Source of the DNA: Pelagovum sp. HNIBRBA483
GTDB taxonomy: Bacteria > Pseudomonadota > Alphaproteobacteria > Rhodobacterales > Rhodobacteraceae
Length of the DNA: 64,000 nt
NCBI RefSeq assembly: GCF_040931995.1
Contig: NZ_CP162412.1
Span: 682,001-746,000, forward strand
Direction of reading: 5' to 3'
Shown here: positions 28,959 through 31,391 of the stretch, piece after piece
Position numbering within the stretch: the first letter of the stretch is position 1
How the letters are laid out: every line of letters begins with the position of its first letter
Position numbers and translations under genes: made by a program
Notes under the pieces: generated by a model
Database searches by the model: none
Told to the model about the DNA's origin: nothing
Seen by the model: only the letters and a program-made list of their open reading frames with translations

Positions 28959-29004
28959 GCGGTAAGGATAGGCGGGGATTTCGCGCGGGACAAGGCCGCA
29001 GGCC

Positions 29005-29138
29005 GCCGCGCAGCGTCCGACCGCCCGCTCGGGCGGACGCTTTGGGTGCCGAGTCGCGGGGATAGATGGCGGAGGGGGGTGGGGGGATAAAGTGCGGACC
29101 TTTCAGGGTAGAGCGCCCACCCGCGGCCGGACGCTGCG
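29005..29138. repeat. Duplicated ~133-bp intergenic element, copy 1
   Basis: This copy matches 29183-29315 along its whole length with scattered mismatches. Its ends are inverted: CGCAGCGTCCG near the left and CGGACGCTGCG at the right. The left end folds into a GC-rich hairpin (29013-29040). The 360-bp gap 28959-29318 holds only these two copies; no real gene was found in it. Confidence 0.8.
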
Positions 29139-29182
29139 CTTTGCGAGGAAGCCTCTGATTTGCACCTGTTAGTGGATGTGCT

Positions 29183-29315
29183 GCCGCGCAGCGTCCGACC
29201 GCCCCGTTGGGCGGACGCTTTTGCGATGTGGTCGCGGGGATAGACGGTGGAGGGCGTGGGGGGATAAAGTGCTGACCTTGGAGGGCAGAGCGCCCGCCCA
29301 CGGCCGGACGCCGCG
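29183..29315. repeat. Duplicated ~133-bp intergenic element, copy 2
   Basis: This is the second copy of the element at 29005-29138, in the same orientation, with its start 178 bp to the right. The left inverted end CGCAGCGTCCG is exact, while the right end is CGGACGCCGCG, one base off. The internal block GATAAAGTG is shared. It ends 4 bp before the stop of the flavoprotein gene. Confidence 0.8.
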
Positions 29316-29318
29316 CGT

Positions 29319-30083: not shown

Positions 30084-30252
30084 TGTGGATGCCGGAACTG
30101 CCTCTGAGCGATCTAATCGCGGCAAACTGCCTATCAAGCGGGTTTTAGGCAAGAGCCAGTGCGATGCTTTGATGTATTGAGGCATCGAGATTTGAGAAAT
30201 CCCTTTTCAGGCGAGGGCTAATCGTCTAGAGCGCGGCGCATGGCGTAAAGCC

Positions 30253-30284
30253 TCCGGTCGCAGCCTACCCGGACAAAACAAGGG
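30253..30284 (+). promoter_or_regulatory. preQ1-I riboswitch aptamer
   Basis: The stem TCCGG (30253-30257) pairs with CCGGA (30269-30273). The loop begins TCGCAG and contains C30268 at the position of the preQ1-contacting cytosine. The 3' tail is CAAAACAAGGG. The loop start and tail match my memory of the Thermoanaerobacter tengcongensis preQ1-I aptamer (GGGUCGCAG ... ACAAAACAAGG). It lies in the leader of queF and a queuosine-precursor transporter, exactly where a preQ1 sensor belongs. Confidence 0.82.
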
Positions 30285-30290
30285 ACCAAA

Positions 30291-30348
30291 GCGCAGGAAA
30301 CCTCCTGCGCCAGCACTGGCTGCGCGGCCGGGGGCCTCGAAAAGAGGA
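30291..30348 (+). promoter_or_regulatory. Expression-platform hairpins downstream of the preQ1 aptamer
   Basis: A perfect 8-bp hairpin (GCGCAGGA / TCCTGCGC, 30291-30310) is followed by CCTC-GAAAA-GAGG (30335-30347). The second hairpin buries the GAGGA ribosome-binding site of queF (30344-30348). CCTC at 30301-30304 could pair with the same GAGG instead. No U-tract follows either hairpin, so control is more likely translational. Confidence 0.5.
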
Positions 30349-30355
30349 CATCCCG

Positions 30356-30823
30356 ATGTCGAAAGAAGATATCTATTCGGGCCTGACCCAGCTGGGCCAG
30401 ATGACCGAAACCCCCAAGAGCCCCGAAGAGGCGGTGCTCGAAAAAGTACCGAACCCGCAGGCGGATACCCGCTTTGCGGTGCGCTTTACCGCACCTGAAT
30501 TTACCTCGCTCTGCCCGATGACGGGCCAGCCCGATTTTGCCCATTTGGTGATCGATTACCTCCCCGGCAAATGGCTGGTGGAGAGCAAATCGCTGAAGCT
30601 CTATCTGACGTCCTTCCGCAATCATGGTGCGTTCCACGAGGATTGCACGGTGTCGATCGGGCGGCGATTGGCGGACCTTCTGGAGCCTGAGTGGCTGCGG
30701 ATCGGCGGCTACTGGTATCCGCGCGGCGGCATCCCGATTGATGTGTTCTGGCAGACCGGGCCGGAGCCGAAAGACGTATGGATCCCCGAGCAGGGCGTCC
30801 CGACCTACCGTGGAAGAGGATAA
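30356..30823 (+). CDS. queF: NADPH-dependent 7-cyano-7-deazaguanine (preQ0) reductase
   Basis: The 155-residue protein is a short-form (YkvM-type) QueF, a T-fold enzyme that reduces the preQ0 nitrile to the preQ1 amine for tRNA queuosine. Cys53 in '[11 protein letters not shown]' is the thioimide-forming nucleophile and Asp60 the proton donor. The '[21 protein letters not shown]' region contains the QueF motif that binds NADPH. The gene is preceded by a preQ1-I riboswitch, so its own product should repress it. It is 4 bp upstream of a VUT-family transporter. Confidence 0.96.
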
Positions 30824-30827
30824 GCTG

Positions 30828-31391
30828 ATGAACACCGGAACCATGCAACGGACCGAAGGGTTCATTTATCTGGCGCTTTTCGCGCTGACCATTCCGCTGG
30901 CGAACTGGATGATCGGCAATGTCGGTACTGTTTGCTTTCCTGACGGGCCGTGCGTGATCCCCGTTTGGCCGGGAATTACCGCGCCGAGCGGTGTGCTGGC
31001 TGTAGGCTTTGCGCTGGTGCTGCGTGATCTGGTGCAGCGGCGCTTGGGCGTGAAATGGGCGCTGGGCGCGATTGTCGTCGGTGCGGCGCTGTCCGGCTTT
31101 GTGGCGGCGCCGGCGCTGGTGGTGGCGTCTGTCGTGGCGTTCCTGTTTGCGGAAAGTGCGGACCTTGCGGTGTTTACCCCGCTGCAAAAGCGCGGGCTGA
31201 TCACGGCTGTCGTGGCGTCGAGCTTTGTGGGCCTTGTGGTGGACAGCGTGCTGTTCCTGTGGCTGGCCTTTGGGAGCCTCGATTTCCTCACCGGTCAGGT
31301 GATGGGCAAGGTTTGGGCGGTGGTTGTTTCCATCCCCGTGATCTGGCTGATCCGCCGCTGGGACATGCAACGCGGGCTGACGGCCGCCTGA
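30828..31391 (+). CDS. Queuosine precursor transporter (VUT/YhhQ family)
   Basis: The 187-residue membrane protein has about six helices, including 'GFIYLALFALTIPLANWMIG', 'LVVASVVAFLFAESADLAVF' and 'AVVVSIPVIWLI'. It also has the VUT-family segments 'LRDLVQRRLG' and 'AESADLAVFTPLQKR'. YhhQ-type proteins import preQ0/preQ1. The context with queF and a preQ1 riboswitch makes precursor uptake the likely role. The ATG at 30828 follows the queF stop directly. A terminator lies at 31411-31446. Confidence 0.92.
   Translation: MNTGTMQRTEGFIYLALFALTIPLANWMIGNVGTVCFPDGPCVIPVWPGITAPSGVLAVGFALVLRDLVQRRLGVKWALGAIVVGAALSGFVAAPALVVASVVAFLFAESADLAVFTPLQKRGLITAVVASSFVGLVVDSVLFLWLAFGSLDFLTGQVMGKVWAVVVSIPVIWLIRRWDMQRGLTAA

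Follow-up and report, generated by a model that had tools for sequence, protein, structure and literature searches.

The window analysed here, a stretch of 64,000 nucleotides from Pelagovum sp. HNIBRBA483, contains queF and, directly after it on the same strand, a gene for a VUT-family membrane transporter, both preceded very probably by a 31-base preQ1 sensor (Table 1). The transporter scores over the cut-off of PF02592 (Vut_1; 37.3 bits) and under that of TIGR00697 (32.3 bits versus 50.95); on this weak family match it is likely to be a queuosine-precursor importer, and it adjoins queF also in a congener (G001) and in genome G048. It is a divergent VUT member that does not reach the NCBIfam cut-off for queuosine precursor transporters; no other match to its family is found in the genome. 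The sensor stands beside genes of queuosine biosynthesis and probable transport. The same genome carries tgt, and a queC elsewhere (C1:1896725) that has no aptamer. At 29002-29316 the window also contains two tandem copies, 85-90% alike, of a GC-rich element about 178 nt long (GCAGCGTCCGACCGCCC...GGGGGGATAAAGTGC...GGCCGGACGC); since a single copy is found upstream of the riboswitch leader of G001 as well (L006 2188-2201, minus strand), the element looks like a dispersed repeat.

Table 1. Features of the queF leader and of the genes that follow it (window coordinates).
Feature	Position	Strand	Remarks
P1	CCGG 30254-30257 / CCGG 30269-30272	+	fifth pair U30253-A30273 possible
Aptamer loops	L1 UCGCAG 30258-30263; L2 CCUA 30264-30267; L3 30273-30278	+	L3 A-rich
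Specificity base	C30268	+	
Pseudoknot tail	30279-30283	+	CAAGG
P1 5' strand with 5' flank GCC	30250-30257	+	doubles as 5' side of the putative anti-aptamer helix with 30328-30335 (sequence, duplex prediction)
Aptamer-tail AAGG	30280-30283	+	queC ribosome-binding site in most relatives; no start codon at usable spacing here
Spacer hairpin	30291-30310	+	GCGCAGGA-AACC-TCCTGCGC; fold prediction
Anti-aptamer segment, arm 1	30318-30324	+	GGCTGCG, complementary to aptamer loop CGCAGCC 30259-30265
Anti-aptamer segment, arm 2	30328-30335	+	CCGGGGGC, complementary to GCCTCCGG 30250-30257
SD hairpin	CCTC 30335-30338 / GAGG 30344-30347	+	loop GAAAA; covers queF ribosome-binding site
Extended SD hairpin, predicted bound state	30330-30354	+	G30330-30333 with UCCC 30351-30354; G30334-C30349; constrained folding
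queF ribosome-binding site	30344-30347	+	GAGG, 8 nt before start codon
queF	30356-30823	+	NADPH-dependent 7-cyano-7-deazaguanine reductase (preQ0 to preQ1); TIGR03139 (QueF-II) 147.4 bits, PF14489
VUT-family (COG1738-like) membrane transporter	30828-31391	+	4 nt after queF

The putative aptamer occupies positions 30253-30283 of the plus strand and reads, in order, TCCGG (30253-30257), TCGCAG (30258-30263), CCTAC (30264-30268), CCGGA (30269-30273) and CAAAACAAGG (30274-30283); these are the stem, loop and tail letters described in the original prediction, which had been made from the sequence alone. All the sequence features of a type II (Tte-like) preQ1-I aptamer are present, including those of an H-type pseudoknot: a P1 of 4-5 bp, a loop, an A-rich L3 and a tail complementary to the loop, with C30279 and G30282 facing G30263 and C30261, respectively. 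With the Tte aptamer, which has a UCGCAG loop and a AAAACAAGG tail, the element shares both of these motifs, the AC marker, an association with queuosine genes and, on the reading given below, translational control. It differs from it in having probably a 4-bp P1 and a 6-nt L3 (5 bp and 9 nt in Tte), one extra base in L2, and an AAGG that is not the ribosome-binding site of the gene, the anti-aptamer segment and SD hairpin lying 35-71 nt downstream. Type II is marked by AC immediately before the 3' strand of P1 (PMC11625349, PMC10622847), and A30267 and C30268 are found there, before CCGG 30269-30272, instead of the UC of type I; unlike type III, in which UU adjoins the 5' strand of P1 and the loop is short and rich in pyrimidines, the element has UC and UCGCAGCCUA. 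In the Tte register, part of which is given in PMC11625349, the letters of the binding pocket also agree, with G30257-C30269 atop P1 and C30259, G30263 and C30279 at the places of C7, G11 and C30.

The match to the Rfam preQ1 covariance model that the original prediction had looked to was not obtained at the curated threshold: the window element scores 15.2 bits with RF00522 (PreQ1), versus a gathering score of 39, so that the aptamer, while carrying the sequence features of known preQ1-I type II members, falls short of formal assignment by Rfam. It is the top-scoring place of RF00522 across the whole genome. Among related loci (17 scanned at the gathering score and 20 in E-value mode) none reaches 39 bits; the best score listed is 33.9 bits, and the queC copies listed range from 21 to 34 bits. 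Since the whole related group, and not only the window element, stays under the threshold, the failure looks like a limit in the sensitivity or threshold of the model for this group. A covariance model (R1) built from 32 distinct copies, with no queF-leader copy among them, scores the element at 54.7 bits in the window (E = 4.4e-10), and genome-wide recognizes it as the sole significant match (E = 2.1e-8). In 398 genomes of the phylum R1 yields 13 matches in 12 genomes, 11 directly before queC and 2 before queF; one of the latter lies directly before queF and the other is the window element. The core CCGGTCGCAG-N5-CCGG-N2-AAAACAAGG has a chance expectation of about 1e-7 occurrences in the genome. 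When the genomes of named species were scanned with sequence patterns, at least 118 stretches were listed; most of the matches listed come from Rhizobiales and Rhodobacterales, and there are also a few from gammaproteobacteria (Pseudomonas, Oceanimonas, Oceanisphaera) as well as from Moorella. Because the patterns themselves specified loop and tail letters, the invariance of these among the matches is no evidence of conservation; such evidence comes from the search described next, which started from QueC.

In relatives the element nearly always coincides with the queC ribosome-binding site. A protein search that started from QueC, and thus made no use of the aptamer, found a strong queC match in 19 of 198 family genomes; in 15 of these 19 genes the full aptamer is present with its AAGG at the ribosome-binding position (Fisher 4e-17, in a table to which two aptamer genomes without queC were entered by hand). 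At most loci the AAGG stands 5-11 nt before the queC start. The downstream gene of about 233 residues in the relatives was considered as a candidate yhhQ and rejected, as it is QueC (TIGR00364); the sole true transporter among these downstream genes is the one in Moorella mulderi (L075), where a close Firmicute form of the aptamer precedes a queuosine precursor transporter gene. Upstream of queC in G055 (L231) the sequence reads ATCCGATTGCAGTCTCCCTGATTAAAAGAAGAAGG, probably a decayed aptamer.

The long platform that the original prediction had singled out as unusual is indeed so. In most relatives the aptamer overlaps the queC ribosome-binding site, and here it ends 72 nt from queF. An aptamer 53-91 nt before queF was found in ten distinct leaders: those of the window, G001, G048, G397, G374, Gemmobacter, Natronohydrobacter, Ochrobactrum, Brucella daejeonensis and Mesorhizobium soli. 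An additional queC copy is present in Ochrobactrum, B. daejeonensis and G397; not a single match to queC was obtained in G048 or G374, and searches of the genera around these two genomes gave no further queF leaders. In G032, G040 and G054 there is no aptamer directly before queF, which is explained by the aptamer at queC, on the same strand and about 1.8 kb farther upstream. In G1070 (L259, reverse strand), which also has a queC copy (L249), a variant aptamer ending AAAACAGGAG is placed right at the ribosome-binding site of queF.

The aptamer is retained in both the congener G001 and G048, so that the expected conservation of loop and tail in near relatives with a queF is borne out. A comparison of G000 with G048 shows 30 of 31 aptamer bases to be identical, while queF third codon positions are 52% identical and the flanks have likewise diverged to about 50%. 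In the relatives the outermost P1 pair occurs as A-U, C-G, G-C or U-A and the next one as C-G or G-C, giving 20 double-change cells, a covariation score as high as which was reached in none of 500 shuffles and which falls once the partner is slid. The linker between stem and tail is bimodal in 153 distinct copies. Its short form, which the original prediction had considered atypical, is the commonest one in this group (79/153) and is tied to the length of P1: among copies with the long linker 73 of 74 retain the fifth P1 pair, versus 39.9 expected if the two sides were independent, and among those with the short one 18 of 79 do. Two geometries follow from this: a 5-bp P1 combined with a long L3, which is the Tte arrangement, and a 4-bp P1 combined with a 6-nt L3. 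The counts are inflated by shared ancestry, and both geometries are seen in Rhodobacterales and Rhizobiales alike. The window element has the short linker, yet its fifth pair, U30253-A30273, could form. Taken together, the held-out R1 match, the linkage and the covariation agree with the class originally proposed, and make it highly probable that 30253-30283 is a preQ1-I aptamer, with preQ1 as its presumptive ligand.

The spacer between aptamer and gene contains a segment that could couple the two. Its second arm, CCGGGGGC, lies 45-52 nt downstream of the aptamer; CCGGGGGCC is unchanged in G001 and G048 and the remaining spacer has diverged, while the GGCTGCG arm is partly broken in G001 (GGCCGCG). 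In the predicted minimum-energy fold the 5' half of the aptamer pairs with 30318-30335 (leader z = -3.56), and the duplex between the 5' half and the spacer has z = -4.44 in the window when compared to shuffled spacers. Complementarity of the spacer to the 5' half of the aptamer is in excess in the ten queF leaders (mean z = -2.0) versus 151 queC controls (mean z = -0.1, sd 0.93). When the aptamer is forced in the folding, G30330-30334 extends the SD hairpin to UCCC 30351-30354; at one place in this extended hairpin the window has G-U where G001 has G-C, and a C-G pair in its stem is replaced by U-A in G048. The hairpin at 30335-30347 does cover the queF ribosome-binding site, as had been claimed, but is not by itself the switch, since a 3-bp remnant of it persists in the unconstrained fold; constrained folding suggests that the state-dependent part is GGGGG 30330-30334, which would either extend the hairpin or pair with the aptamer. 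With the 5' flank included, the predicted cost of opening the SD region in the window is 5.7-8.0 kcal/mol in the bound state versus 2.7-5.0 kcal/mol in the free state. The difference has the same sign in G001, G048 and Ochrobactrum, and the same sign or none in Gemmobacter; it is smaller without the 5' flank in the window, G001 and G048, and little or absent in the Brucella, Natronohydrobacter, G397 and Mesorhizobium leaders. Support for this platform is good in the clade of the window, fair in Gemmobacter and Ochrobactrum, and weak in the other leaders.

These folding results can be cast in the form of a mechanism. In the bound state preQ1 would lock the small pseudoknot, barring 30250-30265 from downstream pairing, and the freed GGGGG 30330-30334 would extend the SD hairpin, in which the ribosome-binding site of queF is buried; in the unbound state the 5' half of the aptamer would pair with 30318-30335 and consume GGGGG, leaving over the ribosome-binding site only a weak hairpin of 3-4 bp, on which ribosomes could load. 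Since the bound state buries the ribosome-binding site in the extended hairpin, preQ1 should repress translation of queF. In the window the aptamer fold costs 8-13 kcal/mol relative to the anti-aptamer fold, in an energy model that includes neither pseudoknot nor ligand, and equilibrium folding alone might fail to switch; as stability without ligand favours the anti-aptamer fold, the choice between the two is probably made during transcription. Transcription termination was considered and rejected, as there is no terminator-like site in the leader; the spacer hairpin at 30291-30310 was discarded as an intrinsic terminator for lack of a T run after it. Overall, we consider it very likely that preQ1 controls queF, and likely that it does so through a preQ1-I type II riboswitch that lowers translation of queF and of the transporter gene when preQ1 is plentiful; the comparative evidence supports the target and feedback logic first suggested for this locus. 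That the distal anti-aptamer platform is the switch appears somewhat favoured.

A different route would have a real aptamer act through its own AAGG, as a standby site or as the ribosome-binding site of a short upstream ORF, with queF following by coupling. In G397, G374 and Natronohydrobacter there is an ORF of 26-30 codons at normal spacing from the AAGG, with its stop at the queF start, Brucella has one of 9 codons, and in G1070 an aptamer coincides with the ribosome-binding site of queF; neither in the window nor in G001 or G048, however, does an ATG, GTG or TTG occur 4-13 nt after AAGG, no small upstream ORF at usable spacing is found in the window leader, and queF has its own GAGG, which makes this route rather unlikely here. 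It is distinctly unlikely that the main ligand is preQ0 or another deazapurine, so that the switch would read the substrate of QueF or the cargo of the transporter. The Tte type II aptamer binds preQ0 with a Kd of 35 nM, 17-fold more weakly than preQ1, and preQ0 is the preferred cargo of the importer YhhQ (PMC10622847); moreover G048 and G374, which lack queC, must import a precursor. Nonetheless, the pocket agrees in its positions with the type II form that binds preQ1, and preQ1-I switches are known to work by letting the end-product preQ1 repress genes for synthesis and uptake (PMC11625349). Very improbable is that the aptamer is a relic, left behind by deletion or duplication of a queCDEF leader and now regulating nothing in the window lineage, as the queC-like start after the aptamer in G397, and perhaps in G374, and the AAGG without a start codon in the window might suggest, because the aptamer has been kept between G000 and G048 against the divergence of flanks and third codon positions, and the complementary platform segment has been kept as well. 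A chance resemblance, to which the score under the RF00522 threshold could point, has a negligible probability, and the data on linkage and conservation already refute it, given an expectation of about 1e-7 per genome, a held-out R1 E-value of 4e-10 and the strict association with queC and queF.

The preferred reading, a preQ1-repressed queF with a distal platform, can be compared with other systems. The alphaproteobacterial queC-leader form has an aptamer letter for letter, or nearly so, as in the window, but there AAGG is the queC ribosome-binding site, whereas in the window the AAGG stands far ahead of queF and does not overlap its SD. The queCDEF leader of B. subtilis shares the type II aptamer, the queuosine operon and a mutually exclusive downstream structure; it is, however, a transcriptional switch that works by a terminator (PMC11625349), of which the window leader has none. 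The type III switch of E. coli yhhQ has the same AC specificity motif and AAGG tail, but differs in the two type III marks named above, the UU and the short loop (PMC10622847, PMC11625349).

The upstream ORF of G397 starts with MKTRVI, which resembles the QueC start MKTIVI, and in G397 (L054), G374 (L064) and a Natronohydrobacter MAG (L145) the stop of the upstream ORF falls at the queF start (ATGA). The queC-like first codons of the G397 ORF and its stop at the queF start suggest that queF leaders derive from queC leaders via duplication or deletion. We would give even chances to a scenario in which the alphaproteobacterial queC aptamer, which acts there by covering the ribosome-binding site, moved before queF and at least three platforms arose: direct overlap (G1070), a coupled upstream ORF (G397, G374, Natronohydrobacter) and the distal hairpin (window, G001, G048, and probably Gemmobacter and Ochrobactrum). 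If this were true, a single aptamer would display platform replacement among living relatives, with P1 and L3 lengths changing together.

Our literature search found no paper on alphaproteobacterial queC/queF preQ1 switches; with respect to the literature found, the sub-threshold queC/queF set, the joint variation of P1 and L3 length and the distal platform appear to be new, with the proviso that McCown et al. 2014 may list some members. Probable preQ1-I switches are widespread in Rhodobacterales and Rhizobiales, with a few in gammaproteobacteria, and are unreported by Rfam 15 at threshold in any scanned locus; since these loci go unreported, pipelines run at the Rfam threshold would miss queuosine regulation there. 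In the series from queC to queF leaders one can also study the ways in which one aptamer works through different expression platforms.
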